Shown: in pieces, positions 30,015-44,980 of the stretch | How the letters are laid out: each line of letters opens with the position of its first letter | Position numbering within the stretch: the stretch's first letter is position 1 | Assembly: GCA_002722295.1 (NCBI GenBank) | Contig: PBLF01000032.1 | Coordinates: forward strand, 1 to 64,000 | Source of the DNA: Stappia sp. | Lineage (GTDB): Bacteria; Pseudomonadota; Alphaproteobacteria; Rhizobiales; Stappiaceae | Direction: 5' to 3' | Length of the DNA: 64,000 nucleotides | Translations under genes and position numbers: made by a program | Notes under the pieces: model-generated | Seen by the model: only the letters and a program-made list of their open reading frames with translations | Databases searched by the model: none | Told to the model about the DNA's origin: nothing

Positions 30015-33000
30015 TCACAGGGCGAAGGTCGCCTCGCCGGCAAGGCCCGCGCCCGCGATGGCCGAGATCTGGCGCACCCGCAGGCGCATGTGCGTTGACG
30101 GCGACCCGAAGGCGGCGAGCACCTCGCCCGCACTCACGACGAGCGCGGGCGTCTCCGTCTCGCGGGACAGCCGCACCTCGCCCTCCTCGTCCAGCAGTTC
30201 GGCGAGATAGGCCTCCCGCTCCTCGGAAAGCGGCACCTCGGTTTCCCGCCAGACATCGCCGCCGATGCGGGTGCGGCGGATCCAGGTGAAGGCGAAGTCG
30301 CCCGATGGCGGGCGCGAAAGCCGCAGGTGCACCGGCGCGAAAGGCATCAGCCCGCGCGCGCTCGCCACATGGTCGAGGTCAACTCGGGCGGGACTGTCGA
30401 GCGGCGCGCCGGCCGGCACCAGCGCATGGGTGAAGGCCGTGCCGATCTCGTCCAGCGCCAGCGGCAGGGGAACCAGGCTCCGGTCGAGCACCACCATGCG
30501 GGATCCCGCCGGTGTTTCCCGAACGGCGGCGGCTTCCGTTCCGCCCAGGCCGCGCAACAGCATGGTGAGATCGTAGCGGCGCGGTCCGGTCAGCTCCGCC
30601 CGCGCGAACTGGACGATCTCCAGCGTGCCTCCGGGCGCAAGAAGGCAGAGCGCGTTGGCGCCGGCCAGAACGTCCGCCTCTGCGGCTGACGACAGCGTGC
30701 CGCCGGAAATCTCCACCGAAAGCCGTCCACCCCGGTCCCACACCGCCGCCGGACCGGCGGCAAGCGGCGCGGTCAGCGTGCCAAGGAGCGCCGGGCTTTC
30801 CACCAGCGCGAGGGCCGCGAGGCCTCCCCCCTCGCGCGCCCGGTAGATCTGGAACGCGCCCGGCCAGGGACGTGCGAAGGCGGCAAGGCGCGGCCGCTCG
30901 GGCTCATCGAGGCCGGGCAAGGGCGGCAGGTCGAGAAGGATCGCGTCCGGGGCACCCGTCGCCCCGGTCACCGCGCGCGGGCGTGCCCCGCCACCGGACA
31001 TGCGCGCCGCGACCGGCACCGGCCGGCGCAGAAGACGGCCAGTGATACGGCGGGTCTCGCCGTCCTCGATCGCTTCGATACGGCAAAAGCGCTCCTCCTC
31101 ACCGCCGATGCGCACGTCGGCGCGAAGCCGCAACACATCGCCCGCCTCCAGTTCCAGCCGCCCGGCGGGAAGCTCGAAGCCTGCCTCCTCGCGCTCGTTC
31201 CAGCGCCTGAGCAGAAGCCGGTCCGCAAGCACCGCCGCGAGGGAGGGATCGAGGCTCGCTCCCAGGTCCAGCTCTTCCACCCGGTTGCCGGCGGAGGGAG
31301 ACGAAAGGCGCGCGGCGGCGAGCGTGCGCCGGTGATCGCGCATGGTGTCCCGCACGGCGATGCGCACCTCGGCTGGAAGGTCGGCCTCCTGCGTCCGGCG
31401 GATCGAAACGGCGGCCTGTTCGGGCGCGGAAACGGCGATGGCGTCCGCATCGAGATCGGCGACCGGTTCCGACCAAGCGGGGCAAAGCGCGACCGCCGTT
31501 CCCCGGTCCACGGCGACAATGCCGTGCGCGGCAAGCAGGGGCTCCAGCACCGCACGCAGCGTGATTGGCCCGCCAAGAGCGATCCCGTCCAACATGCCGC
31601 CGAACTCCGCGCGCTCGAGCACGCCCTCGGGAAGGCCGAAGTCGCGGGCAAGCGCGTCAACGAGGCCGGCAAGCGAAACGCTGCCCAGCCGGCCGTTCAG
31701 CCAGTGCCCCCTGTGCCAGTTGGCCCCATCCGACCAAAGGTCCTCATGAGCGGGAAAGGCCGGAAACGGCCGCGCGTCCCACGCCCACAGATGAACGCGG
31801 CCGGGGTCGAGCATCGGCCCGCCATAGACCGGCGAGACCGGGTTTTCCCCCTGCTCCAGATGCGGATGTTCGCCCGACCAGTAGCCAAGCACCGCCTCCA
31901 GCGCGCGCCGCTGGACCAGATCGTCGCGCGCGCCGTCCGAAAAACGCGGAATGCGACTTTCAGCCGACTTCGCGTCCACGAAGACATTGGGCTCGTTGGC
32001 CCCGAACGTGACCGCCGGAACCCCGAGCTCGGTCAGCCAGACAGGCTTTGACGCCGGCATCCAGGGGCTTTGCACCTCAAGCTCCACCCCACCGACGCGT
32101 TCCACATGGACATTGCCCCACCATCCGGCAAGATCCTTGGCGCGGTAGACGAAAGGCTTGGCATATGCGCCATCAGTGATCGGCGTGCGAAGACCCGCGC
32201 GCCGGTCCTCCTCGCTCGCGTAGTACCAGTCGAAATCCTCCCCGCCGGCGACGGCCTTTGCCAGGGGAGCAAGCGCGTAGGGATTGGCGTTGCCGTCCGG
32301 ATCGCCGTCCTCGCGCTGGTCGGCGAGCGGAAAATACGCGTCGATCCCCACCGCATCGATGGCCGGATCGGCCCACAGCGGATCGAGGGGAAAGCGCAAC
32401 TCGCCCTCCCCGCGCTGATGCGCGCCATATTCGGACCAGTCGGCGGCATAGGTGAGTGCCGCGTCCGGCAGCATCGCGCGCACCTCGCCCGCCAGTTGCC
32501 TCAGCCCCGCGACGAAGGGCGCGGCCGCCGTCTCGTCATAAAGGCGCGTCAGCCCGCGCATCTCCGAGCCGAGGAGAAACGCGTCCACCCCGCCGGCAGC
32601 CTCGGCAAGCCTTGCATGATGAAGGATGAAGCGGCGATAGCTCCACTCGGACGGGCCGGTGTAGAGAATTCTGGTCCCGAAGGTGACGAACTGCGCCGGC
32701 ACCGCCGCGCCGAGGAATGAAGCGATCTCGGCCGTCGCCGCCACCGTTCCGTCGGGCGACCCGGGAACACCCGGTGCACGCGATGCCGTGATGCGCCCGC
32801 GCCAGGGATAGGGCGGCTGGCCGGTCGCGCCAGAATGCGGATCGACGAGGGTATTGTCCGCCGGAACGTCCATCATGAGAAAGGGATAGAGCGCAACCTT
32901 GAGACCTCGCGCCTTGAGGTCGGCGATGGCGGCGAGCACGCTCTCGTCGGACGGTGTGCCGCCGTAGGCTGGACGCCCCTCGTGGCGAGAGACCTCCCCG

Positions 33001-33932
33001 GCGCTGGAGACGTTCAGACCCGACACGGCCCATTGCGCGCCGGCGGTCTGCCGGCCACGCGTTTCCACCTTCGGCCGGATCGTGCACGCCGAACAGTCGA
33101 GACTGTCACCGAACCAGCCGACGACGAGCGCCACCTGTTCCAGGTTCGGGCACAGCGCCTGCAATTCGTCCATCGCGGCGGTGAAATTGCTGGCCGCATG
33201 GGAGACCTGCCGGTTCGCCGTCTCGGAGACCCCCGGGCGCACAGTCCAGGTGACCGGGCGGGTGTGGTAGACGAACTCCCCCGCGCCCGGAATGACGGTC
33301 ACCGCGCGCACCATTTCCTCCAGCGGCTCGACCGGGCGGATCACCTCGAAGGTGAGCTGCGGCAGGCGATCGCCGAACGCGGCCAGCGGCAGGCGCTCGA
33401 AAACGACATAGGCCGTGCCACGATAGGCGGGCGCATCGTCCTGGCGCGCGAGGATCAGCGGGTCGGGAAGCTGGTCGGCGGTGCCGTGGTGAATGCGCCA
33501 GGTGACACCGTCGAGATCCATCGGCTTGCCGTCCGCCCAGACCGCGCCGATGCGCGCGACCGGCCCCTCGGCCAGCGCCACGGCGAAGCTGGCGAAATAG
33601 GCATAGCTGCGCACGGTGGTGCCGCCGCCCCCGCCGCCCTTGCCGCCGGCGCTTTCCTCGCGCACCTCCTCCTCGAAGCGGGTCGCCCAGATGACCTGGC
33701 CGGCAAGGCGCACGCGTCCGTAGACCCGTGGCAACGCGGCGCCTTCCGTCGAGGACTGGACGGAGAGGTCGCCGAGCCGGCGCCCCTCCACGGTCCGGCT
33801 GCCGCCGAAGAGCCGCTGGTCGACGAGCGAGCCCGCGATGGCGCCGGCGGCCTGACCGAAAATCGCGCCGAACCCGCCGAAGGCGGCCGCGCCGAGCGCC
33901 TTTCCGGCGGCGGCGAGGATCAGGGTTGCCAT
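30015..33932 (-). CDS. GTA gp15 baseplate 'megatron' / tail-fibre protein
   Basis: 1305 aa. An N-terminal hydrophobic glycine-rich segment (about 1-40) is followed by a TIM-barrel-like GTA domain (about 400-700, with YAADWSEYGAHQRGEGELRFPLDPLW and WWGNVHVERVGG), a phage-tail_3 region and a C-terminal receptor-side domain. It matches rcc01698 of RcGTA, which closes the baseplate and may contact the recipient. It overlaps the gp14 gene by 13 bp. Confidence 0.93.
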   Translation of the reverse strand: MATLILAAAGKALGAAAFGGFGAIFGQAAGAIAGSLVDQRLFGGSRTVEGRRLGDLSVQSSTEGAALPRVYGRVRLAGQVIWATRFEEEVREESAGGKGGGGGGTTVRSYAYFASFAVALAEGPVARIGAVWADGKPMDLDGVTWRIHHGTADQLPDPLILARQDDAPAYRGTAYVVFERLPLAAFGDRLPQLTFEVIRPVEPLEEMVRAVTVIPGAGEFVYHTRPVTWTVRPGVSETANRQVSHAASNFTAAMDELQALCPNLEQVALVVGWFGDSLDCSACTIRPKVETRGRQTAGAQWAVSGLNVSSAGEVSRHEGRPAYGGTPSDESVLAAIADLKARGLKVALYPFLMMDVPADNTLVDPHSGATGQPPYPWRGRITASRAPGVPGSPDGTVAATAEIASFLGAAVPAQFVTFGTRILYTGPSEWSYRRFILHHARLAEAAGGVDAFLLGSEMRGLTRLYDETAAAPFVAGLRQLAGEVRAMLPDAALTYAADWSEYGAHQRGEGELRFPLDPLWADPAIDAVGIDAYFPLADQREDGDPDGNANPYALAPLAKAVAGGEDFDWYYASEEDRRAGLRTPITDGAYAKPFVYRAKDLAGWWGNVHVERVGGVELEVQSPWMPASKPVWLTELGVPAVTFGANEPNVFVDAKSAESRIPRFSDGARDDLVQRRALEAVLGYWSGEHPHLEQGENPVSPVYGGPMLDPGRVHLWAWDARPFPAFPAHEDLWSDGANWHRGHWLNGRLGSVSLAGLVDALARDFGLPEGVLERAEFGGMLDGIALGGPITLRAVLEPLLAAHGIVAVDRGTAVALCPAWSEPVADLDADAIAVSAPEQAAVSIRRTQEADLPAEVRIAVRDTMRDHRRTLAAARLSSPSAGNRVEELDLGASLDPSLAAVLADRLLLRRWNEREEAGFELPAGRLELEAGDVLRLRADVRIGGEEERFCRIEAIEDGETRRITGRLLRRPVPVAARMSGGGARPRAVTGATGAPDAILLDLPPLPGLDEPERPRLAAFARPWPGAFQIYRAREGGGLAALALVESPALLGTLTAPLAAGPAAVWDRGGRLSVEISGGTLSSAAEADVLAGANALCLLAPGGTLEIVQFARAELTGPRRYDLTMLLRGLGGTEAAAVRETPAGSRMVVLDRSLVPLPLALDEIGTAFTHALVPAGAPLDSPARVDLDHVASARGLMPFAPVHLRLSRPPSGDFAFTWIRRTRIGGDVWRETEVPLSEEREAYLAELLDEEGEVRLSRETETPALVVSAGEVLAAFGSPSTHMRLRVRQISAIAGAGLAGEATFAL

Positions 33933-34378
33933 GGATCGATCCCGGGAAAGAGGAAGGCCGCCGCGATCCGGCGGCGCCAGGGCGCGATGAGCGGGCTTTC
34001 GGTGACCGACACCCCCTCATAGGCATGAATGAAACTCGGGCAGCGCTCGGCAAAGACCGTTCCGAGAAGCCCCGCGTGCTTGACCGGCGCGCCGTCCCGC
34101 CAGCGAAAGAGCAGCAGATCGCCCGGCCCGGCCCGCTCGGGGGCGACCTCGCGCATGTGCCGTCGCGCGGCGGAGAGCAGCGTCTCGCCGGCCCCGGCTT
34201 CCGCCCAGTCGCGGGTGTAGGGCGGCAGGGGTTCGGGCTCGGCGCCGTAAAGCGCGCGCCAGACGCCGCGCACCAGGCCCAAGCAATCGGCGCCCGCGCC
34301 CCTGCAGCTTGCCTGATGGCGATAGGGCGTGCCGATCCAGCCCCGCGCCTCGGCGAGAATGTCGTTTCGCGTGACCAT
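33920..34378 (-). CDS. GTA gp14 NlpC/P60-type peptidase
   Basis: 152 aa. NlpC/P60 catalytic Cys32 in GADCLGLV and His101 in VKHAGLL, with a third polar residue in IHAYEG. In RcGTA, gp14 is a baseplate peptidase that locally opens the peptidoglycan during DNA injection. The start is ATG 34378; a longer reading that extends through gp13 is an overlap artefact. Confidence 0.93.
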   Translation of the reverse strand: MVTRNDILAEARGWIGTPYRHQASCRGAGADCLGLVRGVWRALYGAEPEPLPPYTRDWAEAGAGETLLSAARRHMREVAPERAGPGDLLLFRWRDGAPVKHAGLLGTVFAERCPSFIHAYEGVSVTESPLIAPWRRRIAAAFLFPGIDPWQP

Positions 34379-34401
34379 GGAGTTCCTCTTCGAAGCCCGC
34401 C

Positions 34402-35295
34402 TCAGCCGACCAGCGCGCCGCCGTCGTTCTCGGCGGCCCCGCGGCTCGGGTAGGCAAGCGCGTGATCCGCGCCCGGCATGTGCGGGAAGCCCTGGAAGTT
34501 CAGCGCGTTGGCAAATTTCGCCCGGCAGGTCGCAAACCGCTTGTCGCATCCCGCCGACAGGCGCAGCACCGTTTCCGCCACCAGAACGCCGCCCAGCGGG
34601 TCGCGCAGGGCAAGGCGGCGCATGTCCCGATCCTTGCGGTCCGAGACGATGTCGCCAACCGCCCCCGACAAGGGCCCCGAAAGCACCTCGAGCCGGCCGC
34701 CGGAGAACCATTCCGCCGGGTGGTCCGGCACGCCGTCCACGACAAGACGGTCGGCGGCGCCCGCCTCGACCACGCTCGCACTTGCCTGAAAGCCGCCAGC
34801 GACGAGATCGACCCGGCAGCGCGCGTCGCCGAGCACGGCGTCACACAGGTGGGAGAAGACGCGCCCCTGCGGCACGTCGAGCAGATGGGCGAGCCCGCGC
34901 AGTTCCGCGCGAAAGGCCGCGCCCGCCCGCGTGACCTCGCCGATGACCGCACGCCGCATCAGCACCCGGTGGGCCGGGTCCTCCCAGTCCACCACATGGA
35001 TCTCGACCTCGGCGCCGTCCCAAAGCCCCGCCGCGAGGTCCGCCTCCGCGACCGCCTTCGAGGACAGGATACCGGCGGTCTCGGCGCTTCCCGAGGCGAA
35101 CTCCGGCTCCAGCGTGGTGACACTGGTCTCCAGTCCCAGGTCGGGGGCGAAGGTGACGCCATCGAAGGCAAGCGCGCAATCGTGATCCGTGAAGCCGAAG
35201 ACGGCCCCATCGCGGCGGGTCACCTTCCAGCAGGTCGCACGGGTCGCCGCCGGCGCGCCAAGACGCGCCAGCGTATCCGGATCGATTGTCTTCAT
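34402..35295 (-). CDS. GTA gp13 hub protein (DUF2163 / phage BR0599 family)
   Basis: 297 aa. The C-terminal signature GCDKRFATCRAKFANALNFQGFP places conserved cysteines within 25 residues of each other, a feature of this family that could bind a metal cluster. It is the RcGTA hub homologue linking distal tail and baseplate. It lies 30 bp after gp12 and 23 bp before gp14 on the same strand. Confidence 0.93.
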   Translation of the reverse strand: MKTIDPDTLARLGAPAATRATCWKVTRRDGAVFGFTDHDCALAFDGVTFAPDLGLETSVTTLEPEFASGSAETAGILSSKAVAEADLAAGLWDGAEVEIHVVDWEDPAHRVLMRRAVIGEVTRAGAAFRAELRGLAHLLDVPQGRVFSHLCDAVLGDARCRVDLVAGGFQASASVVEAGAADRLVVDGVPDHPAEWFSGGRLEVLSGPLSGAVGDIVSDRKDRDMRRLALRDPLGGVLVAETVLRLSAGCDKRFATCRAKFANALNFQGFPHMPGADHALAYPSRGAAENDGGALVG

Positions 35296-35325
35296 GAAAA
35301 CCTCCGCAAGCGGCCGGCCTGCCCG

Positions 35326-35961
35326 TCATGTGGCCGGATCGATCTCAATGAGCGGGATCGTCGGCACACGCCCGGCCTCGAAGTGGGTCAGGCTCATGTC
35401 GAGCCGGTCGGTGTCGAAGCGCACGGGCACGTCGAAGCGAAAGCCCGCCGTGACCGGAACGCCCGGGCCGGGCGGCGCGGCCAGGGTCACGAGCCCGGTC
35501 GTCGCATCGAGCGAAAAGCCCGCCCCTTCATCCTGTTCCTCGCCGCCGACGGCAATTCGCACCGTTCCGGCCACAGGCTTGGTGATCTCACGCGGGTGCC
35601 CTGCGCCGGCGGCACGAACGAGACGGAAGGCCGTGCGTGTCCCGTCGCCCTCGCCGATTTCCCGGTCGAGCGGGGACACCTCCGCGCCGGGCGGGGCCGA
35701 CGTGTTGTCGAAGGGGTCGCGGAAGCGGAACCCCGTGAGCCGTCCGCCCATGCGTTCGAAGAAGGCGGCGACGGCGGCGAGATCGGCCAGCGAGCGCACA
35801 CCCGTTCCCGCGTCATAGCGGCGGCGCGCCCGCGCCCAGCGCGCGTTTCGCGCCTCGGCGCCGGAGGCGAGCGTGACGACTTCCGTCCGCCACTCGGGGC
35901 CTCCGCTGGCGCCGAAGGAAACGGAGAGCGGAAACCGCTCCTCGATGAAGCTTGCCGCCAT
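35326..35961 (-). CDS. GTA gp12 distal tail protein (DUF2460)
   Basis: 211 aa. Family pattern: FIEERFPLSVSFGASGGPEW at the start, RRRYDAGTGVRSLADLAAV in the middle and MSLTHFEAGRVPTIPLIEI at the end. ATG 35961 begins at the conserved N-terminus. It is separated from gp11 by a 449-bp gap that carries an opposite-strand gene. Confidence 0.92.
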   Translation of the reverse strand: MAASFIEERFPLSVSFGASGGPEWRTEVVTLASGAEARNARWARARRRYDAGTGVRSLADLAAVAAFFERMGGRLTGFRFRDPFDNTSAPPGAEVSPLDREIGEGDGTRTAFRLVRAAGAGHPREITKPVAGTVRIAVGGEEQDEGAGFSLDATTGLVTLAAPPGPGVPVTAGFRFDVPVRFDTDRLDMSLTHFEAGRVPTIPLIEIDPAT

Positions 35962-36104
35962 GCGGGCCTCCAGAACAGGACATCGACAGGGAGAGGTGAA
36001 AAAGCGACGCGGGAGACGCGAAGACGCCGTCGGTTTGATTTCCCTCAAGGCGCGACGCTCCGGCCTCGCGCATGGTCGGGACAACAAACGGAGGACGCCA
36101 AGAC

Positions 36105-36344
36105 ATGAGCCATGTTCCGCACGAGCTTCACGAGGAATTCCCCGGGAAGGCGGACGCGCTGCACGCGCTGAAGACCGGCAATGCCCACTTCGCAAAGCTT
36201 GCAGACGAGTATCACGAGGTGAACCGCGAGATTCACCGCATCGAGACCGAGGTCGCCCCCGCTTCCGACGAGGCGCTGGAAGAGCTCAAGAAGACCCGGC
36301 TCCAGCTCAAGGACCAGATCGCGGCCCTTCTCGTAGCCGCCTGA
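36105..36344 (+). CDS. YdcH/DUF465 family small protein inserted in the GTA cluster
   Basis: 79 aa with GGAGG 10 bp upstream of ATG 36105. A two-helix coiled-coil hairpin is characteristic of YdcH (ELHEEFPGKADALHAL...ADEYHEVNREIHRIETE...LEELKKTRLQLKDQIA). Function unknown; it is widespread as a housekeeping small protein. It is the only plus-strand gene inside the GTA operon, between gp12 and gp11, so it may be a late insertion transcribed against the GTA. Confidence 0.9.
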   Translation: MSHVPHELHEEFPGKADALHALKTGNAHFAKLADEYHEVNREIHRIETEVAPASDEALEELKKTRLQLKDQIAALLVAA

Positions 36345-36350
36345 CCTGCT

Positions 36351-36368
36351 TCTCCGGCCCGCCGGAGA
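36351..36368 (+). terminator. Hairpin after the YdcH-like gene
   Basis: TCTCCGGC (36351-36358) and GCCGGAGA (36361-36368) form a compact stem 7 bp after the stop. No clear T-run, so termination is uncertain. Confidence 0.4.
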
Positions 36369-36410
36369 CAGAAGCGCCGGTGCCTGAGCCCCTCCTCTTC
36401 AGGCCCGACG

Positions 36411-37043
36411 TCAGAGCCCGCGCCGTCCCCGTCCGACGGCGCGGGCTACCATCGTCGCGATCTGGGTTTCGGATCGGGCGAAACTTTCCGCATCCCTCGC
36501 CTGCACATTGAAGACGACCGCCGGGACACCCGCCTCGCCCATGCTGCCTGCGGCAACGCCGAGCCGCCCGCGTGCATCGCGTGCAAGCGGCAGGATCGCT
36601 TCCGCCCCCGCCTCCCCCATCAGTCCCGTGCCGCCGCCAAGCGGAAAATAGCTCGGCGATGCCACGACGCCCCCCTTGGCGAAGGCCCTCACCGGCCCGC
36701 CGCCAAGACCTCCCGACAGACCGGATGCCAAACCGGTCGTCAGGCCGCCGAAAAGCTGCGTGATCCCGCCGGCAATGCCCGCTTCCAGCGGGGCAAGCGC
36801 TGCCGAAAGCGCCCGGCTCGACAGCGACAGGGCGATCTGGCGAAACACCTGCTCCAGGGAACGCCCGTCGACCAGCGCGCGTTTCAGGCCTCCCGAAAGG
36901 GAGGAGGAGACCGCCCGCGCACTCACGCCGACGCCGCGCATCAGCCGGTCCAGTTCGGCCGCCTCCGCGCGTGCGTCTCCCAGTCCCCCGTCCAGCCTGC
37001 CGTCCAGCCCGCCGGCCGTCTCGCCACCGCGTTCATCCGCCAT
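36411..37043 (-). CDS. GTA gp11 tail tape-measure protein
   Basis: 210 aa, far shorter than siphophage tape measures (commonly above 700 aa) but normal for the short GTA tail. It is rich in Gly/Ala/Leu, with a hydrophobic glycine-rich centre (ITQLFGGLTTGLASGLSGGL) and the family C-terminal motif FAKGGVVASPSYFPL...GLMGEAGAEAILPL. ATG 37043 is chosen because AGGAG lies 9 bp upstream; an ATG at 37052 abuts that AGGAG. Confidence 0.9.
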   Translation of the reverse strand: MADERGGETAGGLDGRLDGGLGDARAEAAELDRLMRGVGVSARAVSSSLSGGLKRALVDGRSLEQVFRQIALSLSSRALSAALAPLEAGIAGGITQLFGGLTTGLASGLSGGLGGGPVRAFAKGGVVASPSYFPLGGGTGLMGEAGAEAILPLARDARGRLGVAAGSMGEAGVPAVVFNVQARDAESFARSETQIATMVARAVGRGRRGL

Positions 37044-37066
37044 GCCTTGCATCTCCTGTCATGGGT

Positions 37067-37231
37067 TCAATCGGGAAACCGGCGCATCAGCTCGCCCAGC
37101 CGTTCACGGCCAAGCGGTCCGGCCGGGCCGGTGCCCGGTGGCGGACCAAGGGCAAGCGCGACCTCCCGGGGGGTCGCCCGCCACAGGGCTTCCGGCGACC
37201 ACCCGAGCCGGGCAAGGCAGAGGTGAATCAC
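37067..37231 (-). CDS. GTA gp10.1 tail assembly chaperone (DUF2376), GT-like
   Basis: 54 aa from a GTG at 37231 overlapping the gp10 stop. The sequence CLARLGWSPEALWRATPREVALAL matches the phage tail assembly chaperone family that follows g10 in GTAs. The family's usual upstream FPW (here ...RPFPWRLV) is readable in this frame but has no start codon. It lies inside the gp10 overlap, open back to a TGA at 37280-37282. That makes a gp10-gp10.1 fusion by -1 frameshift at 37243-37249 likely (about 177 aa), with or without independent initiation at GTG. Confidence 0.85.
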   Translation of the reverse strand: MIHLCLARLGWSPEALWRATPREVALALGPPPGTGPAGPLGRERLGELMRRFPD

Positions 37232-37599
37232 GAGCCGCCAGGGAAAGGGCCGGCCGGTTCGCCCGCGCCCTCCCCGTGCTCATCGCCTGTCTCCGGTGCG
37301 AAGGTCACGGCCAGCAGGTCGGCGACGAGCCGGGCCATGGCCGGCACCCCGCCTTCCATCGCGAAACGCGCGACCTCCGCGTCCGAGACCGTTTCGCCCG
37401 CCCCGCGCAGCCCGGCGCCCAGAATGCGCGACAGGTCATGGGCCGACAGCCGTCCGCGCTCGAAGCGCGCGGCGAGCCCCGCGAGATCCCCCACGCCGAA
37501 GGCCGCCTCCAGCTCGGCGAGCGCTCCCAGCGTCAACACCAGAACGCGCGGCCTGCCATCCAGGACCGCACCCACTTCGCCACGATGCCGGTTGACCAT
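37228..37599 (-). CDS. GTA gp10 tail protein, G-like
   Basis: 123 aa. GTA-gp10 family pattern: NRHRGEVGAVLDGRPRVLVL...LGALAELEAAFGV...ARFERGRLSAHDLSRILGAGLRGAG. In tailed phages, the gene between major tail protein and tape measure encodes tail assembly chaperone G, with GT made by -1 frameshift. The tail end GAGEPAGPFPGGS contains the slippery codons CCT TTC. It starts 12 bp after gp9's stop. Confidence 0.9.
   Translation of the reverse strand: MVNRHRGEVGAVLDGRPRVLVLTLGALAELEAAFGVGDLAGLAARFERGRLSAHDLSRILGAGLRGAGETVSDAEVARFAMEGGVPAMARLVADLLAVTFAPETGDEHGEGAGEPAGPFPGGS
37243..37249 (-). promoter_or_regulatory. Candidate programmed -1 frameshift heptamer C CCT TTC in gp10
   Basis: On the minus strand this is CCCTTTC, an X XXY YYZ heptamer in the gp10 frame (Pro-CCT, Phe-TTC), 21 nt before the gp10 stop. 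A -1 slip re-pairs CCT with CCC and TTC with TTT, each read by the same tRNA species. It continues into the gp10.1 frame as P-F-P-W-R-L-V. The conserved-looking FPW of gp10.1 can be made only this way. A short downstream stem (CCGGC...GCCGG around 37200) might stimulate slippage. Read directly; function inferred from lambda G/GT. Confidence 0.6.
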
Positions 37600-37610
37600 G
37601 CCGTTTCTCC

Positions 37611-38024
37611 TCAGCTTGCGGCGAAGACGAGCGCGCCGGCCGATTCCAGCGCCAGCTCGTAGGTCACCTCGCCATCGTGATTGCCCGCATAGTCGAGGCC
37701 GGTGATCTGGAACGGCCCGGTGATCGTGCCGAAATCGGGAATCACCACCTGCCAGGGCCGGATCAGCCCGTCGAAGAACAGCCCGCGCACGCTTTCGTCC
37801 GCCACCGCGTCCTTGAAAAGGCCGCTGCCGGACAGGCTGGCCGAACGGGTACCCGCGCCCTCCAGCAGCTCGCGCCAGCGCCCGACGCTCTCCGCGTCGG
37901 TCACATCGACACTTGCCTGATTGAGGGCGATGCGCCGGGCGCGCAGGCCCGCCACGGTGACGAAGCTGCCCGCTCCGGCGGTGTCGCACTTGAGAAGAAG
38001 GTCCTTGCCAGCCTGGGCCGCCAT
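37611..38024 (-). CDS. GTA gp9 major tail tube protein
   Basis: 137 aa, TP901-1-type major tail protein. N-terminus AAQAGKDLLLKCD and middle NQASVDVTDAESVGRWRELLEGAG, then SGSGLFKD and a C-terminal LDYAGNHDGEVTYELALESAG fit the family. It forms the tail tube. It is preceded by gp8 and followed by gp10, in phage order. Confidence 0.93.
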   Translation of the reverse strand: MAAQAGKDLLLKCDTAGAGSFVTVAGLRARRIALNQASVDVTDAESVGRWRELLEGAGTRSASLSGSGLFKDAVADESVRGLFFDGLIRPWQVVIPDFGTITGPFQITGLDYAGNHDGEVTYELALESAGALVFAAS

Positions 38025-38058
38025 TTCGGGTCTCCTTGGGTTTCAGAAGGTTCGACCG

Positions 38059-38490
38059 TCAGCCGAGCGGTTCGGTGACGAGCCGCAGCCTTGCGCGTGC
38101 CCGCCACAGGCGCGCCTGCGGCAGCCGTTCGATTCGCCGCTCGACGAGACGCGTTGCGACGAGAGCGTGGCCGGACGCCTGTGTGGCCAACGCGGCCGCG
38201 ACGCCCGCCCTGTCGGCAAGCAGGGAGACGGCGCGCGACAGGATCCGGCTCGCCTCGTCACGGGAATCCGCGCGCGAGAAAACCGCCAGGTCCAGCCGGT
38301 GCTCCTCGCCGTCCTCCGCCAGAGCGAGGAGCGGGCGGCTTTCGATCGCCCCGATGACGAGGTGGGGGAACGCCGCGCCGCGCGGGGCGCCGTCGTGGAT
38401 CCGTTGCGCTCCGGTCAGCGCGACAAGGTCCGCATCGCCGGACAGAAGGGCGAATGCCGCTCCGCGCAGGGCAAGACTCGCGTCCGTCAT
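38059..38490 (-). CDS. GTA gp8 tail terminator-like protein (DUF3168)
   Basis: 143 aa. DUF3168 pattern: LRGAAFALLSGDADLVALTG...IHDGAPRGAAFPHLVIG, then LDLAVFSRADSRDEASRI. Such proteins cap the tail at the head-tail junction. The stop of gp7 overlaps its ATG by 4 bp (38487-38490). Confidence 0.92.
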   Translation of the reverse strand: MTDASLALRGAAFALLSGDADLVALTGAQRIHDGAPRGAAFPHLVIGAIESRPLLALAEDGEEHRLDLAVFSRADSRDEASRILSRAVSLLADRAGVAAALATQASGHALVATRLVERRIERLPQARLWRARARLRLVTEPLG

Positions 38491-38816
38491 GCCTCCTCCT
38501 CCAGCAGGCAGGTGAGAAAGCCGCTCCGCCTGGCGCTGTCATCGACACCGAGCACGCGGAAGACGCGCTCGTCCTCGTCCACGAGGCGGAAGCCCGCGCG
38601 AACCGGGTTCGGCGCACGCAGCCGCGCCTTGTGGGTGGCCGTGCCGCCCAGGCGTTCGCCCGCCACCCGTTCGGCCAGGGAAGCGGGCGCGAGCGCCACG
38701 AAATGGGCTCCCTCGTCGGCGAACTGCGTGACCGTCTCGCCGTTGACGGCAACGATCCGGTCGGGCCGTTCGAGCCGCATCACGTGGTCGAGCCCACCCG
38801 CTCCGCCGCCCGTCAC
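38487..38816 (-). CDS. GTA gp7 head-tail adaptor
   Basis: 109 aa from a GTG start at 38816 that overlaps the gp6 stop by 4 bp (GTGA). Family fragments: GGLDHVMRLERPDRI, ETVTQFADEGAHFVALAP, RLVDEDERVFRVLGVDDS. It is a phage head-tail joining protein (SPP1 gp16/HK97 gp10-like). A start at the internal ATG (VMRLE) would truncate the conserved N-terminus only slightly. Confidence 0.88.
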   Translation of the reverse strand: MTGGGAGGLDHVMRLERPDRIVAVNGETVTQFADEGAHFVALAPASLAERVAGERLGGTATHKARLRAPNPVRAGFRLVDEDERVFRVLGVDDSARRSGFLTCLLEEEA

Positions 38817-39385
38817 AGCCGCACCCTGCGGTATCCGGAAATCAGCGCGGCAAGCGCGCCCGGCAGGCCGAGCCCTTGCGGCGATCCCGCCTCCGCCAGC
38901 CCCTCGCGACGCTCGAACCAGAAGCCGGCAAGCAGCAGCACCGCCTGGCGCAAGGGCTCCGGCACGTCGTCCGCCGCCGCGCCATAGCCGGCAGTGAAAT
39001 CGATCTCGATGCCGTTGGGCGCGAGACCGCCGGCACCCACCGCGACCGAAAGGCCGGGCGGCTCGCTGTTCAGGCGCGGCGTGTAGGCGCCCACGGGTAG
39101 CAAGACGGGCATCCCGTCGTCGTCGTAGACGGTGAGACTTTCCACCGAGACCACGGGCGCGACGGGAAAGCGCACCGCCCGGCCCGGCGGCCATCCGTCG
39201 AGATACAGCCGCCAGCCCTGGCGGATCAGCGCACGGCGGGTCAGGCGTTCCACCTCGGCGCGCGCTGCGGCGACAAGGCGTTCGATCAGGGCATCCTCGG
39301 CGGTCGCGGTCACGCGCAGGTGGGCGCGCGCCTCCGCCAGCGTCACCGGCTCCAGCGCCGGCGGCGAGGTCACGAGTGCGGTCAT
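38813..39385 (-). CDS. GTA gp6 head-tail connector
   Basis: 190 aa. Pattern of the HK97 gp6-like/phage_TIGR02215 connector: PVTLAEARAHLRV...DALIERLVAAARAEVERLTRRALI...GIEIDFTAGYGA...LRQAVLLLAGFWFERRE. It joins portal and tail. The reading upstream of ATG 39385 is non-coding leader behind the capsid gene. Confidence 0.92.
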   Translation of the reverse strand: MTALVTSPPALEPVTLAEARAHLRVTATAEDALIERLVAAARAEVERLTRRALIRQGWRLYLDGWPPGRAVRFPVAPVVSVESLTVYDDDGMPVLLPVGAYTPRLNSEPPGLSVAVGAGGLAPNGIEIDFTAGYGAAADDVPEPLRQAVLLLAGFWFERREGLAEAGSPQGLGLPGALAALISGYRRVRL

Positions 39386-39415
39386 GCGGTTTTCCTTGTC
39401 GGGAAGAGGCGTTCC

Positions 39416-39441
39416 GGCGGCGCGGTCCTGCCCGCGCCGCC
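39416..39441 (-). terminator. Hairpin after the GTA capsid gene
   Basis: GGCGGCGCGG (39416-39425), 6-nt loop, CCGCGCCGCC (39432-39441): a perfect 10-bp stem in the 73-bp gap between capsid and connector. No T-tract. It probably lowers expression downstream of the highly needed capsid gene or stabilises its mRNA. Confidence 0.55.
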
Positions 39442-39458
39442 GACCGGCTGTCCAGCCG

Positions 39459-40835
39459 TCAGGCCTCGAAGGAGAGCAGCTTGATCGCGTCGAAATCCTG
39501 CACCCCACCGCCGACGCGCTTGGTGGTGTAGAAGAGCACGTAGGGCTTGGCGGAATAGGGATCGCGCAGGATGCGCACGCCGGCCCGGTCGACCACGAGG
39601 TAGCCCCGGCGGAAGTCGCCGAAGGCGATCGCCGCCGCCTCGATGCCGATGTCGGGCATGTCCTCGGCCTCGGTGAGCGGGAAGCTCATCAGGGTCGCCG
39701 GCGCGCCGACGGAGGCCGGCGGCTGCCAGAGGTAGTTGCCGTCCGCGTCCTTCATCTTGCGCACCACCGCCTGCGTGCGCCGGTTCATGACGAAGCGGGC
39801 GTTCTGGCGATAGCCGGCCTTCAGCGCATGGACGAGATCGATCAGCACGTCGGCGGGCGCGCTCGCCGGAAAGGCCCCGTCGACGCCACTCGCCAGCTTG
39901 CCGAGGCTGCCCCAGCTCCACGAGGCTTCGGCCACCCGCGGATAGTCGAGGAACCCGCGCGGCCGGTTGGTCCCGTCGCCGTTGACGAAGGCCGCGCCCT
40001 CCTGCTCGGCGAAGGCCATCTCCACCTCGCCGGCGATCCATGCCTCCACGTCGACGGCGGCATCCTCCAGAAGCGAGGGCGTCGCCGCCGGCATGGCGTA
40101 GAGCTCCATGGTCGGGAAGGCGAGTTCGGCCAGCGTCGGCGCGCCGGTCTGCGGGCGCGCCGAAGTCTCCGCCACCCAGCCCGACTGCGGACCGGTCACG
40201 GAGAACGGCTTCTTGAAGACGCTCGCCGTGACCTGGCGCGATCCGGCGATGGCACGGATCGGCGAGACGGACGCCATGCGGGTCAGGATTTCGCTCTCGG
40301 TCTGCTCGGGCACCAGATAGCCGCCGTCGGGGTCGGACCCGACCGAAAGCGCCTTCTGCTCGATGGTGCGCAGGCCCTCCTCATGGCCCTTGCGCATGTA
40401 GCCGGAAAACGCCTCGCGGTGCTCGAGCACCGCCGGATCGGCCGCCCCCGTCCCGTGACGGCCCGACGCGGCGGGCTCGCGTGCCGGACGGGCCGCCTTG
40501 AGCGCCATCTGGTCGAGACGCGCCTGCTGGCGATCGAGGGCGGCATCGATGCGCGCCAGCTTCTCCGACACCAGCGGATCGGCGTTGCCGCGCGTTTCCA
40601 GTTCGCCAAGCCGCTCCTCGTTCACCTCCCGGTAGGCGGCGAAGGTGGCGCGCATGTCGTCGAGCTCGCGCCGGGTGTCGGCATGGCCCTCGCCGGCGGA
40701 CCCGGACTTGGTTTCGGGCGCGGGCCTCGGCGTGGCGGGGGGAGCCGGCGCCTTGGTTTCGGGCACCCCGCTGGCCGGGGCGGCACGCTCGCGCGGATCG
40801 GCGGCGGAACGCAGTTCGCGGGCGGATCGGGTCAT
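39459..40835 (-). CDS. GTA gp5 major capsid protein (HK97 fold)
   Basis: 458 aa. N-terminal 120 residues contain an acidic/low-complexity leader and a coiled coil (VNEERLGELETRGN...LARIDAALDRQQARLDQM), the delta-domain scaffold removed by the prohead protease. The remaining part is HK97-fold capsid: GGYLVPEQTESEIL, DVEAWIAGEVEMAFAEQEGAAFVNGDG and FGDFRRGYLVVDRAGVRILRDPYSAKPYV. It is the best marker that a particle is encoded. Confidence 0.95.
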   Translation of the reverse strand: MTRSARELRSAADPRERAAPASGVPETKAPAPPATPRPAPETKSGSAGEGHADTRRELDDMRATFAAYREVNEERLGELETRGNADPLVSEKLARIDAALDRQQARLDQMALKAARPAREPAASGRHGTGAADPAVLEHREAFSGYMRKGHEEGLRTIEQKALSVGSDPDGGYLVPEQTESEILTRMASVSPIRAIAGSRQVTASVFKKPFSVTGPQSGWVAETSARPQTGAPTLAELAFPTMELYAMPAATPSLLEDAAVDVEAWIAGEVEMAFAEQEGAAFVNGDGTNRPRGFLDYPRVAEASWSWGSLGKLASGVDGAFPASAPADVLIDLVHALKAGYRQNARFVMNRRTQAVVRKMKDADGNYLWQPPASVGAPATLMSFPLTEAEDMPDIGIEAAAIAFGDFRRGYLVVDRAGVRILRDPYSAKPYVLFYTTKRVGGGVQDFDAIKLLSFEA

Positions 40836-40889
40836 GGGCAGTCTCCAGGGTTTCGGCCCTCGGGCCGTCGTGGGAAGGGAGGGAACGCC

Positions 40890-41369
40890 TCAGCGAGACG
40901 TCGCGCGCGGCGCGGCCCCGGCGAGGGCGTCGAGGCGGGCGGCGGGATGCAGGGGGAAGGTCACCAGGGAGACCTCCCAGAGGTCGATGTCGAAGATCCG
41001 CCTCATGCCGCTTGCCGGATCGCGACGGGCGGAACGGGCGCGAAAGCCGATGGAGAGGCCGTCGAGCGCCCCGGCGGCGACCAGAAGTGCGGCCTCGCGC
41101 CCCGCCGCCGTGGCGGTCAGCAACCGTCCGGCGAGCCGCAGGCCCAGCCGGTCCTCATGCGCTTCGTCCCAGATACCGATGGGCTTTCCCGGGTCGTGCT
41201 GCCAGAGCATCCGGATACCTGCCGCGCCGCGCTCCTTCAGCGAGCGGCGGAAGGCGCCGCGCACCACCACGTCATGCGCCTCGTCGGGAATGCCGAACAC
41301 ACTGGCGTAGCCAGAGATGCGCGCGCCCTCGCCCGGATTGCGCCCGGGGGCCAGGGTCACCGCGCTCAT
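40890..41369 (-). CDS. GTA gp4 HK97-family prohead protease
   Basis: 159 aa. Protease U35 pattern: ISGYASVFGIPDEAHDVVVRGAFRRSL, IRMLWQHDPGKPIGIWDEA (His), LVAAGALDGLSIGFRA (Ser), and DIDLWEVSLVTFP (acidic). It cleaves the capsid delta domain. ATG 41369 is chosen because it overlaps by 4 bp a small upstream gene, and homology begins at about residue 10. Confidence 0.93.
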   Translation of the reverse strand: MSAVTLAPGRNPGEGARISGYASVFGIPDEAHDVVVRGAFRRSLKERGAAGIRMLWQHDPGKPIGIWDEAHEDRLGLRLAGRLLTATAAGREAALLVAAGALDGLSIGFRARSARRDPASGMRRIFDIDLWEVSLVTFPLHPAARLDALAGAAPRATSR

Positions 41370-41536
41370 GCGGGCGCGTCCGCCGCGCGCCGGCGCGTGA
41401 GCAGATGCCCGAGGCGGTTCGCGAAATGGCGGAACACCACGCGGTGGCAGCCCTGCGCGGCACGCCCGCCGCCGGACGAACGGGGTGGCCACGCGCGCGC
41501 GGTCGCGCACGGGCCCGGATGTCGGGATCGCGTCAT
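41366..41536 (-). CDS. Small Arg-rich GTA-cluster ORF (56 aa), unknown
   Basis: 56 aa, too small for most gene finders. It has GGAG 6 bp upstream of ATG 41536 and its TGA overlaps the protease ATG by 4 bp (ATGA). The sequence is basic and His/Arg-rich, with an amphipathic end HRVVFRHFANRLGHLLTRRR. No family recognised. Support is gene-start signals and context, not homology. Confidence 0.45.
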   Translation of the reverse strand: MTRSRHPGPCATARAWPPRSSGGGRAAQGCHRVVFRHFANRLGHLLTRRRAADAPA

Positions 41537-41576
41537 GAAGGTCTCCGTTGCCTTGTGGAAGCGGACCGGAAAGCGG

Positions 41577-41807
41577 TCAGTCGTCGTCGAAATCCGCGAA
41601 GATGCGGTTCAGCCGGGCGATGGCCGCGACGAAGTCGTCGAAGCGCCTGTTGGCGCGCGCCATCTCGCGCAGGGACCAGACAAGCAGGCTGGTCGCGGAA
41701 CTCGCCCAGAGAAAGAGCACGAGATGGGCAAGATCGCCCGCGCCGCCGAGGATGCGGGCCATGGGTTCGAGCATTCGAGGCTCCAGCATGTGTGGCTCGA
41801 CCATCAC
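41577..41807 (-). CDS. GTA gp3.5-like small membrane protein
   Basis: 76 aa. Its ATG overlaps the portal stop by 4 bp (41804-41807), showing coupling. It has one membrane helix (LAHLVLFLWASSATSLLVW) and an acidic C-terminus ending FADFDDD. RcGTA carries a small unnamed gene, orfg3.5 (rcc01685), at this place; homology is positional. Confidence 0.7.
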   Translation of the reverse strand: MMVEPHMLEPRMLEPMARILGGAGDLAHLVLFLWASSATSLLVWSLREMARANRRFDDFVAAIARLNRIFADFDDD

Positions 41808-43015
41808 GAGGCCGCCCCCTCCCCGGCGTCGTCGCCCGCGCCATAGCCGACGGCGGCACGCTTTTCGTCCCGCGTCAGGAAGCTCGCCCCCTCGACCCGC
41901 TGCCAGAGGGCGGCACGCTCGCTCGACAGCGCCTCGACCGCATCGCCGTCGGGCTCGAGCCGCAGGGATGCCTCCCGCCCCTCCGTCGCGAAACCGGGCG
42001 CGAGGAAGCGCGCCAGAGCCTCTCCCGTGCGCGCGGCCAGCGGCAGCACGGTCTGGCGCCAGAAGGCCCGGTTCGCTTCCTGATAGTTGGCAAAAGTGTT
42101 GTCGCCGGGGATCGCCAGCAGCATGGGCGGCACGCCGAAGGCGAGCGCGATCTCGCGCGCCGCCTGGTTCTTCGCACCGACGAAATCCATGTCCTTCGGG
42201 GTTAGCCCCATGGGCTTCCAGTCGAGCCCGCCTTCCAGAAGCAGCGGTCGCCCGGCGTTGCGCGCGCCCTGGTATCCCTCCTCGAGTTCGGCCTTCAGCC
42301 GGTCGAACTGCTCTTCCGACAGGTTCGCCCCGTCGGCGCCATAAACCAGCGCGCCGGAGGGCCTTGCGGAGTTGTCGAGCAGGGCCTTGTTCCAGGCGCC
42401 CGCCGCATTGTGCAGGTCGAGGCTCACCTGCGCCGCCTCGATCGGGGCGAAGCCGTAGTGGTCGTCGAGCGGGTGGAAGATCTTCAGATGCAGCACGGGC
42501 GGGCGACCGCCGGGTTCGCGCGCGGCAAGGCGCACCGTGCGCCCGGCGACGGTGTAGTCATGCGCCTCGGGCCAGCCGTCACGGCCCGGCACCACCCGGA
42601 CCCGATCGGGCCGCAGGGCGAACAGCTCGCGCGGCTCGCCCTCGATCGACACCATCTCCACATAGGCGTTTCCCGCCACCAGAAGGTGACCGTAGACCTC
42701 TTCCAGGAAGCCCTTGCCCGAAGCCCCGGGATTGGGCCGCGCCAGAAGCGCGAGCAGCGGATGGCGGTCGAGCTCGCGTTCGCCGTCGAACAGGGTGAAG
42801 GGAACGCTTGCCGCCGCTTCCGCGATCATGCGCACCGCCCGGTGCACCACCGGATTGCGTGCATAGCCCTCGCGGGCCAGGGCCGCATAGTCGCGCGGGG
42901 TCCAGACCGGGCGCCCGCTGCCCGACAGCGCGATCAGCGGACCGGTGCGCGACGCCTTCGCCTCGGCCGGGCGAAAGCCCTTGCGAACCGATTCGAGAAA
43001 CCCTCTCAATGCCAT
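41804..43015 (-). CDS. GTA gp3 portal protein (HK97 family)
   Basis: 403 aa from ATG 43015. Portal-family motifs: NPVVHRAVRMIAEAAASVPFTL, GNAYVEMV, ALRPDRVRVVPG, HLKIFHPLDDHYGFAPIEAA, NKALLDNSARPSGALVYG and AREIALAFGVPPMLLAIPGDNTFANYQEA. It is a ring portal for DNA entry, typical length. The in-frame upstream extension to 43078 is leader-like and less conserved. Confidence 0.95.
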   Translation of the reverse strand: MALRGFLESVRKGFRPAEAKASRTGPLIALSGSGRPVWTPRDYAALAREGYARNPVVHRAVRMIAEAAASVPFTLFDGERELDRHPLLALLARPNPGASGKGFLEEVYGHLLVAGNAYVEMVSIEGEPRELFALRPDRVRVVPGRDGWPEAHDYTVAGRTVRLAAREPGGRPPVLHLKIFHPLDDHYGFAPIEAAQVSLDLHNAAGAWNKALLDNSARPSGALVYGADGANLSEEQFDRLKAELEEGYQGARNAGRPLLLEGGLDWKPMGLTPKDMDFVGAKNQAAREIALAFGVPPMLLAIPGDNTFANYQEANRAFWRQTVLPLAARTGEALARFLAPGFATEGREASLRLEPDGDAVEALSSERAALWQRVEGASFLTRDEKRAAVGYGAGDDAGEGAAS

Positions 43016-43117
43016 GATCGGAAACACCTTTTCGTCCGTCTTGAGACAGTGATTCAAGCTCTTCACACGCTGAATCATCCCGCGCCGCCGGAAGCGCTCC
43101 GCGCGGGGGTCACCGCC

Positions 43118-44437
43118 TCACAGGTTGCGCAGTCGCGGCTCGCCGCGCCGGGCCAGAAGCAGTTCGCCCAACGCCCAGACCAGCGCGTCGAGCCGGTCAG
43201 GCGACCGGCCGCTCGAAAGTCCGCCGGGGCCGAAGTCGGCCATCTCGTCCTCGAGTTCCGGAAACGCGCCCGCGTGCCGTACCCGGCCTTGCTCGTAGAA
43301 AAGCGCCACCGGCTCGGCGCGGGCGAGCTTGCCGCGCGATGCGTGCACCGCCTTCACCGGAATGCCGGGATCGACGCCGCCGATCACCGCGCTGACCATC
43401 TCGCCGCCCTGGTTCACCTCCGCCACCAGGCAGTCGGCCTCGTGGGTGTGCCAGAGACGCGCCGCCCGCGCCGCCCAGTCCGCCGGACGGGCCCGTTCCA
43501 TGCTCGCGTCGGCGAGCACATAGGCGATGCCCTCGCCCGAGAGCCCCGCCACGACGATGCCGCAGGCGTCGGACCGCCTGCCGGAGGAGGCCGGCGGATC
43601 GATCGCGATGACGATGCGCTCAAGGTCCGGCACCCGCTCCGCCCTGGCGCTCTCGATCATCTCGCGGGTCCACAGCGCGCCCGGCCGGTCGTCGACGAGT
43701 TCGCCGTCGAGTTCCTGCCGTCCGAGCCGCGTTCCCGCGTAGCGGGCGCGGATCGCGCTGACGAAACCCCTGGCCAGGTGAGCGGCGTTGGCCTCCGTCG
43801 CCGCGCGAACGACGCGCGTTTCCGGGTCCGCGAGCAGGCGTTTCACCAGCGGGATCGGGCGCGGTGTCGTTGTCACGAGCTGGCGCGGACTGTCGCCCAG
43901 GCGCAGCGCGAACTGCAGCATGTCCCAGGTCTCCTGCGGGTGCCGCCATTTGGCGAGTTCGTCGCACCAGGCGAGATCGAACTGGGGGCCGCGCAGCGCA
44001 TCCGGGTCCTCGGAGGAGAACACCTGCGCCACCGCGCCGTTCTGCCATTCCAGCCGCCGCCGCGAGGGCAGCCACTGGGGCCTGTCGCGTGGCGGATGCA
44101 CCGCCAGCAGGCCCGAAACGCCCTCCACCATCACCTCGCGCGCGTCCTGCAGCGTCTCGCCCACCAGCGCGATGCGCCCGGCCCGTGGTCCTTGTCCGCC
44201 GGCGCGGGCCCGCAGCCATTCGGAGCCCGCCCGCGTCTTTCCCGCGCCGCGTCCGCCGAGCAGCATCCATACGCGCCAGTCGCCGGGCGGCGGGCGCTGG
44301 TGATCGTGGGCCCACAGGTCCCAGTCGTGACGCAGGAATTCAAGTTCGCCCGGGCCGAGTGCCGCCAGGAACTGCGGCAGCAGGTGCTTCCCGGCACAGG
44401 CGCTCAAGGCGCTTTTCAAGCTCTCGCCTGAGGCCAT
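43118..44437 (-). CDS. terL: GTA gp2 terminase large subunit
   Basis: 439 aa from ATG 44437 (AAAGGG 6 bp upstream). ATPase: Walker A GGRGAGKT (residues 61-68), Walker B-like FDLAWCDELAKW, motif III TTTPRP. Nuclease: IVIAIDPPAS and DRLDALVWAL acidic residues. All key residues are present, so the enzyme is probably functional. It packages random host DNA by headful in GTAs. Its start lies about 98 bp inside the small-terminase gene. Confidence 0.95.
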   Translation of the reverse strand: MASGESLKSALSACAGKHLLPQFLAALGPGELEFLRHDWDLWAHDHQRPPPGDWRVWMLLGGRGAGKTRAGSEWLRARAGGQGPRAGRIALVGETLQDAREVMVEGVSGLLAVHPPRDRPQWLPSRRRLEWQNGAVAQVFSSEDPDALRGPQFDLAWCDELAKWRHPQETWDMLQFALRLGDSPRQLVTTTPRPIPLVKRLLADPETRVVRAATEANAAHLARGFVSAIRARYAGTRLGRQELDGELVDDRPGALWTREMIESARAERVPDLERIVIAIDPPASSGRRSDACGIVVAGLSGEGIAYVLADASMERARPADWAARAARLWHTHEADCLVAEVNQGGEMVSAVIGGVDPGIPVKAVHASRGKLARAEPVALFYEQGRVRHAGAFPELEDEMADFGPGGLSSGRSPDRLDALVWALGELLLARRGEPRLRNL

Positions 44438-44918
44438 CGGCATCCCTTTCCGCCTGTGTCTCGCTGCCCGAAAGTCCGCCCCGCAGCTCGATGAGAATGT
44501 CGAGCGTCTTTGCCAGGCTGCCGAGGGTTCGCGCGTTGCGCTCCACCGACGTGGGATCGGTGGCGATTTCCACCGCGTCGCCGCCGAGAAACTGGGCCTC
44601 GACCGCACGGATCTGCGCCTCGAAGGCGGCGATCAGCCGGGCGACCATGCGGGCGAGGCCGCGCGTGTCGCCCTTTTCCATCAGCTCGCGCAGATGCCCC
44701 TGACGGACCCAGCCCTCGACGCGGATGCGCCGTTCGACGGTCTGGCGCGTGACGCCGAACCGCTGACCGAGTTCCTCCGCCCCGCAGCCCCCTTCCTCAT
44801 ACAGGTGACGCGCCTCGCGCCAGGCATCGGTCCCCAGATGGACCGGCTGCTTGCGCGCCGGCACGGCCCGCGCCCCGGACAGGGCTTGCCCGTCCGGTTG
44901 CCCGCTTGCCCCGGTCAT
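44340..44918 (-). CDS. terS: GTA gp1 small terminase
   Basis: 192 aa. An AAGGAG is 6 bp before ATG 44918. A helix-turn-helix sits at EELGQRFGVTRQTVERRIRVEGW (about residues 45-70), followed by a helical oligomerisation domain and a C-terminal Arg-rich tail. RcGTA gp1 has been identified as TerS with reduced sequence specificity, which allows random packaging. It is the first gene of the operon; the repeat array begins 62 bp upstream. Confidence 0.88.
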   Translation of the reverse strand: MTGASGQPDGQALSGARAVPARKQPVHLGTDAWREARHLYEEGGCGAEELGQRFGVTRQTVERRIRVEGWVRQGHLRELMEKGDTRGLARMVARLIAAFEAQIRAVEAQFLGGDAVEIATDPTSVERNARTLGSLAKTLDILIELRGGLSGSETQAERDADGLRRELEKRLERLCREAPAAAVPGGTRPGRT

Positions 44919-44980
44919 ACGGATCTCCTTTTGCGTGACTGTCCGCTCGCCCACTCTCCGCCGTCACCCCACTCTCCGCC

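Follow-up and report, generated by a model that had tools for sequence, protein, structure and literature searches.

The stretch of 64,000 bp from Stappia sp. analyzed here (contig PBLF01000032.1, in the following the window) contains a reading frame, gp10.1, which overlaps the preceding gene gp10 in the -1 frame and has no start codon of its own ahead of its domain. A sequence-only reading had proposed a programmed -1 frameshift similar to that of lambda G/GT, which gene transfer agents (GTAs) would have kept. Long-tailed phages are characterized by frameshifting in their tail chaperones, and a finding of this kind would be ordinary, being a lambda-like frameshift in a tail chaperone that is well conserved as a mechanism. 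According to our analysis gp10 and gp10.1 very probably form together a tail assembly chaperone of the lambda G/GT type, the two halves of which are joined by a -1 frameshift in an RcGTA-like GTA. The predicted fusion was computed to be 177 aa in length, the size also given previously.

Composition of the GTA cluster and the gp10/gp10.1 overlap

Known here from its genes, the cluster is a putative RcGTA-like gene transfer agent. A head-tail cluster including gp15 (GTA_TIM), a DUF2460 protein and GTA gp10 was present (Table 1). The proteins encoded, all on the minus strand, were terminase, portal, capsid, tail completion, the tail tube protein gp9, DUF2460, hub, NlpC/P60 and GTA_TIM. A Pfam match was obtained for nine of the ten cluster proteins scanned. 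The exception was gp11, whose label as tape measure therefore rests on its position. With this reservation for the last gene, the proposed order of major tail protein, gp10, gp10.1 and tape measure was recovered as gp9 - gp10 - gp10.1 - gp11, with two ORFs located between the major tail protein and the tape measure.

Upstream of the terminase gene, at positions 44797-46361, overlapping ORFs in several frames and long repeated segments were seen by eye. An ORF embedded in this region on the minus strand (45582-45947) resembles, likewise by eye, a GIY-YIG-type nuclease.

Table 1. Features of the GTA cluster and of the gp10/gp10.1 overlap in the window
Feature	Position	Strand	Basis or remark
GTA head-tail cluster (terminase, portal, capsid, tail, hub, GTA_TIM)	30015..44608	-	Pfam
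gp9, major tail (tube) protein	37611..38024	-	PF06199, E 1.3e-46
Shine-Dalgarno-like GAGGAG before gp10 ATG	37607..37612	-	by eye
gp10, tail chaperone 1, predicted 0-frame product, 123 aa	37228..37599	-	ORF, start ATG at 37599; PF11836 Phage_TAC_11, E 3.7e-28
gp10.1 reading frame, -1 relative to gp10	37067..37279	-	open from TGA 37280-37282; no ATG, GTG or TTG before FPW
Slippery heptamer C CCT TTC, gp10 frame	37243..37249	-	letter-by-letter reading
Second heptamer T TTC CCT, gp10 frame, overlapping the first	37240..37246	-	letter-by-letter reading
gp10.1 domain Phage_TAC_6, starting at F-P-W inside the heptamer	37070..37246	-	PF09550, E 4.7e-16
GTG overlapping the gp10 stop (GTGA), possible re-initiation codon; product would lack FPW	37229..37231	-	sequence
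gp10 stop TGA	37228..37230	-	12 nt past the end of the first heptamer
gp11, tape measure by position, 213 aa	36411..37052	-	ORF, position; no Pfam match

The heptamer C CCT TTC in the gp10 frame was verified letter by letter. Its distance to the gp10 stop had been given as 21 nt, which holds only when counted to the last base of the stop codon; from first base to first base it is 19 nt, with 12 nt in between. The overlapping second heptamer, T TTC CCT (37246-37240), is also in frame and was absent from the sequence-only reading. As proposed, the TGA at 37280-37282 marks the upstream limit of the open -1 frame, which reads R-P-F-P-W at the slip site and ends at TGA 37069-37067. Its first start codon is indeed a GTG (37231-37229) that overlaps the gp10 stop, and the gp10.1 domain match begins upstream of this GTG.

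A profile search of the whole genome placed the gp10.1 domain at identical coordinates. TIGR02216 ('rcc01693 family') scored 55.9 bits on gp10.1, slightly below the cut-off of 56.1, and the PHROGs matches of gp10 and gp10.1 were weak. A sequence search with gp10 among solved structures gave nothing meaningful. The predicted model of gp10 (pLDDT 87.8) matched none of the PDB structures and weakly resembled predicted phage proteins, several of which are named tail assembly chaperone (best E 0.0057).

Slippery heptamers at the end of gp10

Among 385 genomes sampled from the class, 45 carried the Phage_TAC_6 family; for the order it was 128 of 199 sampled genomes, where six of the weakest secondary matches (E 5.5e-4 to 9.8e-4) were left out. 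The first sample of 180 loci was reduced by six duplicates (L001 and L076-L080) to 174, and 170 of these carried both genes. Here gp10.1 was in the -1 frame relative to gp10 in 149 pairs including the window, in the +1 frame in 12 and in the same frame in 9. Two further samples, partly overlapping with the first, comprised the best 80 of 588 named genome loci and the best 80 of 586 loci of a viral collection; among these best 160 loci 158 pairs were usable, of which 150 were in the -1 frame. Thinning at a tail identity of more than 75% led from 288 loci to a nonredundant set of 221. Some of the sampled loci may represent paralogues in prophages instead of GTAs.

With gp10, two records each were matched among the phages and among the plasmids searched, and no match to DNA resembling locus L003 was found in the plasmids searched. 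Both phage records (L343 and L344; MW091529 and MW462191, 'Bacteriophage sp.') resemble GTA clusters, with AAACCCTTGA located at the end of gp10.

Within the last 60 nt of gp10 the 221 nonredundant -1 pairs contained 149 X XXY YYZ heptamers in phase 0, compared with 12 and 8 in the other phases. At least one was present in 112 of the 221 loci, while 300 codon shuffles gave a mean of 38.5 (SD 5.8, maximum 57). As a control we analyzed the ends of gp9, which carried a heptamer in 2 of 218 loci, in contrast to 111 of 218 for the gp10 ends of the same loci. The first sample, for which 138 -1-frame pairs with scores of at least 60 and at least 40 were kept, gave a similar picture with 108 heptamers in the gp10 phase and 6 and 7 in the others. 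Both further samples did as well, with phase ratios of 45:2:1 (76 usable of the best 80 of 588 genome loci) and 33:3:1 (74 usable of the best 80 of 586 viral-collection loci). The bodies of the same gp10 genes contained 22, 23 and 31 heptamers per 40.6 kb in the three phases. Based on the value of 22, approximately 0.03 phase-0 heptamers are expected by chance in the 49 nt overlap of the window. As a positive control lambda G was scanned, and its GGGAAAG was recovered 22 nt ahead of the stop.

CCCTTTN was found at exactly the position seen in the window in 28 of 48 nonredundant overlap loci (window included), which belong to several families. Among P-F dicodons CCCTTT was used in 28 of 36 cases where gp10 overlaps and in 17 of 78 without overlap (p 2e-8). 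The conservation across alphaproteobacterial relatives, which the sequence-only reading had suggested to examine by alignment, was thus found in the -1 frame and in an enrichment of in-frame heptamers at the gp10 end only. A heptamer near the stop of the first frame is conserved in relatives, in part of them at the exact position and in others as a different heptamer.

Putative slip site versus start codon

Only ATG, GTG and TTG were counted as start codons, within 75 nt upstream of FPW in the first and further samples and within 150 nt for the classes of the 221 loci. A CTG at the stop (CTGA), found in some loci lacking a heptamer, was left out of these counts. No start codon preceded FPW in 95 of the 221 loci; 75 of them carried a heptamer, 13 C CCT only and 7 neither. 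Conversely, among the 63 loci with their own ATG there were 10 with a heptamer, 3 with C CCT only and 50 with neither. The 63 loci with GTG or TTG only were mixed (27, 19 and 17, respectively), because CCT TGA itself contains TTG. Before thinning, a heptamer was present in 67 of 83 loci without a start and in 7 of 33 ATG loci (Fisher p 3e-9, ignoring kinship). On the tree, nine independent pairs on supported branches gave on average 5.5 vs 0.9 in the predicted direction, which was not significant (median p 0.125), and 5.3 vs 0.2 with a median p of 0.06 when C CCT was also counted as a slip site.

Two groups of loci speak against the proposed frameshift. A heptamer or C CCT was present in 13 of the 63 ATG loci, which do not need one, and 7 of the 95 loci without a start had neither; for loci without slip motif or usual start, the CTG at the stop is a possibility. 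Loci with a start codon before FPW and no slippery sequence, named in the sequence-only reading as evidence against a frameshift, do exist. They make up 50 of the 63 ATG loci (e.g. of Afipia and Rhodopseudomonas) and not the whole set. The general statement that GTAs keep the frameshift is therefore true of many lineages but not of all.

Nine loci had no ATG, GTG or TTG from 150 nt upstream of FPW to the 20th residue past it. Seven of these carried a heptamer (L055, L088, L104, L132, L154, L233 and L322) and two C CCT. Ordinary re-initiation can thus not make the whole gp10.1 there. Furthermore, the -1 frame of L019, L029 and L217 opens just 9-12 nt before FPW without a start codon in the gap.

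These data bear on translational coupling, by which ribosomes would terminate on the TGA of gp10 and start anew on the GTG (GTGA, 37231), producing a separate gp10.1 without FPW and leaving the heptamers incidental. The required GTGA overlap is present in the window, in 40 of 48 overlap loci the first start after FPW coincided with the gp10 stop (+15 or +18), and ATGA or GTGA overlaps occur upstream of FPW in many relatives. However, FPW lies upstream of that start, and yet F-x-W was kept in 44 of 48 overlap loci and 138 of 173 non-overlap loci. Moreover, ATG, GTG and TTG are all absent from the stop of L055, L088 and L090, which share the same geometry; the next start is found at +84, not within 120 nt and at +36, respectively. 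Since the excess of phase-0 heptamers is also left unexplained, we regard coupling in place of a frameshift as improbable. A combination, in which the frameshift would give the fusion and re-initiation at GTGA or TGATG some free, shorter gp10.1, would fit the coexistence of both signals in most overlap loci. The methionine of FPWxxxM is, however, also kept where an upstream start exists and may simply be a residue of the protein; such a double use seems rather unlikely to us, if less so than coupling by itself.

The Phe of FPW (window 37238-37246) was encoded by TTT in 105 of 138 non-overlap F-x-W loci, which clearly exceeds the background in these genes. TTT as a proof of slippage was rejected, as it was found in only 28 of 44 overlap loci.

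Turnover of the putative slip sequence

The slip sequence varied among relatives (AAACCCT, CCCTTTC, GGGAAAG) with C CCT as the common core. One conserved slip sequence was therefore rejected. The arrangement of the window, i.e. CCCTTT at PFPW with the stop mostly 16-19 nt further downstream, is shared by several families of the order and also occurs outside it; loci of Methylopila, Hansschlegelia and Hyphomicrobium are among the examples. Of the named loci, AAACCCT was present in all three of Methylocystis, all three of Neorhizobium, some of Rhizobium and the single one of Aureimonas, CCCTTTG in three of four Ancylobacter loci and GGGAAAG in all five sampled members of one family. Loci of Afipia, Tardiphaga and Rhodopseudomonas lacked a heptamer and carried an ATG of their own.

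Three relatives of the same genus were found (L043, L044 and L048), and their gp10 tails contained no X XXY YYZ heptamer. Here gp10 ends with GAC CCT TGA, 50 nt before FPW. Compared to them, the window shows a deletion of about 47 nt and two additional nt near the slip site (37240-37320), in a linker that aligns poorly. The net change seems to keep the -1 relation while the putative slip site moved. It could be argued that the two additional nt reflect an assembly error, by which a missing or added base would split a true in-frame fusion: without them gp10 and gp10.1 would be in one frame, as far as the poorly aligning linker allows, and the assembly has a completeness of 89% and a contamination of 6.6%. 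The same geometry with the heptamer at FPW and the stop 16 nt on was, however, found in unrelated genomes including those of Methylopila, Hansschlegelia and Hyphomicrobium, and we consider an error of this kind highly improbable.

Over the final 20 codons of gp10, C CCT in the gp10 frame was counted 173 times, compared with 7 times in the 60 codons upstream and once in the gp9 ends. This raises the possibility that slippage of a single tRNA on C CCU (Pro) is sufficient and the tandem X XXY YYZ is not required, a sub-mechanism compatible with the frameshift proposed here. Ends with C CCT TGA lacking a full heptamer exist, and 13 loci without a start carried C CCT only. On the other hand, GGGAAAG, GGGAAAC and similar sites contain no CCT, and full heptamers by far exceeded expectation (AAACCCT 42 vs 0.7, CCCTTTC 28 vs 2.2). 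In addition, part of the C CCT stems from P-W codons of the -1 frame. We therefore hold single-tRNA slippage as a tentative variant only.

A broader reading of these patterns would be an old and actively maintained -1 frameshift in the tail chaperone of alphaproteobacterial GTAs. Its usual core would be C CCU, including C CCU UGA at the stop; the slip sequence would have been repeatedly replaced, and some lineages would have swapped to a start codon at the gp10 stop. We judge the arguments for and against this scenario as evenly balanced.

Proposed mechanism and possible stimulators

The heptamer enrichment is found mainly in loci without a start and supports the lambda G/GT-like interpretation. 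We infer slippage, its rate, the tRNA step and the roles of the products as follows. The majority of ribosomes would terminate on the gp10 TGA at 37230, and a minority would slip back by one base at C CCU UUC or at the overlapping U UUC CCU and continue in the -1 frame, resulting in the 177 aa fusion with the gp10.1 domain as its C-terminal part. Genes for tRNA-Pro (GGG) and tRNA-Phe (GAA) were present in the genome. The likely driver would be tRNA-Pro (GGG), gaining a Watson-Crick pair in the shift from CCU to CCC, and tRNA-Phe (GAA) would shift from UUC to UUU in the same slip. CCT is a rare proline codon in the GTA genes of the window examined (10 of 249). By analogy to lambda, the abundant short form may coat the tape measure and the rare fusion may recruit the tube protein.

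A stimulatory RNA downstream is not always present in lambda-type chaperone frameshifts. Downstream RNA structure had a mean z of -0.34 at the 28 CCCTTTN loci and of -0.33 at the first 60 of 173 non-overlap loci. In the window z was at best -1.57, with no signal above shuffles, and a downstream hairpin or pseudoknot as stimulator was rejected for this reason. A match resembling a Shine-Dalgarno sequence was located 6-21 nt upstream in 74% of the 112 heptamer loci compared with 50% in codon shuffles, which is only suggestive of an upstream stimulator. Transcriptional slippage was also rejected, as no long homopolymer run is found at the site.

For specialists the unexpected parts are the presence in a domesticated element, the preference for C CCU and the repeated exchange of slip site and start codon. 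A frameshift kept in a domesticated particle argues for continuing selection on the chaperone ratio, and hence for tails that are still built. If true, the replacements of slip sites and the swaps to start codons represent natural replicates of a recoding ratio lost or rebuilt. The coexistence of lineages with a slip site and lineages with a start codon would make it possible to examine the purpose of the ratio directly. In practice gp10.1 can be annotated in a truncated form, as in MW091529 and MW462191, where it starts from a methionine after FPW. A gp10-gp10.1 fusion is worth seeking in GTA producers.

Comparison with known systems

No account of frameshifting in GTA gp10/gp10.1 was found in the passages searched by term in the open-access literature. 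The accessible main texts of PMC7296036, PMC9662315, PMC9632790, PMC6209664 and PMC11841831 contain neither 'frameshift' nor 'chaperone'. A +1 frameshift was proposed in a Wolbachia hydrolase, with the phage WO tail chaperones gpG and gpGT named in passing (PMC10299305). A chaperone frameshift signal was described in most of the Rhodobacter phages studied in PMC8601537, and frameshifting of 6 and 7% was measured in two phage tail-chaperone genes (PMC3711429). The X XXY YYZ motif is missing from most annotated phage frameshift overlaps (PMC10885494), so that loci without a motif may still shift. In Rhizobium phage 16-3, p015 (L342:8478-8831) is homologous to gp10, and a domain resembling gp10.1 follows it in the -1 frame; the scan found no X XXY YYZ heptamer in p015. 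For the capsid gene of the same phage (L342:4109-5375) the annotation includes a ribosomal slip product, p005b.

The chaperones gp93/gp94 of the Caulobacter phage phiCbK slip at AAAAAAC and those of Colossus at GGGAAAC (PMC3556154). They share with the window a -1 frameshift in chaperones preceding the tape measure and alphaproteobacterial hosts, but are phages with other slip sequences. The G/T chaperones of Escherichia phage 9g carry the motif CCCUUUUUUU (PMC4276943) and hence a CCCUUU-type motif as in the window, although a -2 shift was proposed there instead of -1.

In RcGTA, g10 is named 'tail chaperone 1' with pfam11836 and g10.5 'tail chaperone 2' (PMC11409702), and g10.1 is listed as a short gene in PMC9765227. 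The position of g10/g10.5 is the same as that of gp10/gp10.1 in the window, and g10 likewise belongs to pfam11836 (PMC11409702). The word 'frameshift' does not occur in the accessible text of PMC11409702 on g10/g10.5. The loci L002 and L003, which are probably Rhodobacterales-like, have their own ATG and no heptamer.

A close parallel in organisation is the lambda G/GT tail assembly chaperone frameshift (PMC5009743, citing Levin 1993 and Xu 2004). In both, two ORFs lie between the major tail protein and the tape measure with the second in the -1 frame, and the stop is preceded by an X XXY YYZ heptamer at a distance of approximately 20 nt (GGGAAAG at 22 nt in lambda, 19 nt in the window). The slip sites differ, being Pro/Phe in the window and Gly/Lys in lambda, and the window represents a domesticated GTA that is likened to lambda by organisation. 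Unlike lambda, some relatives of the window have a start codon in place of the slip site.
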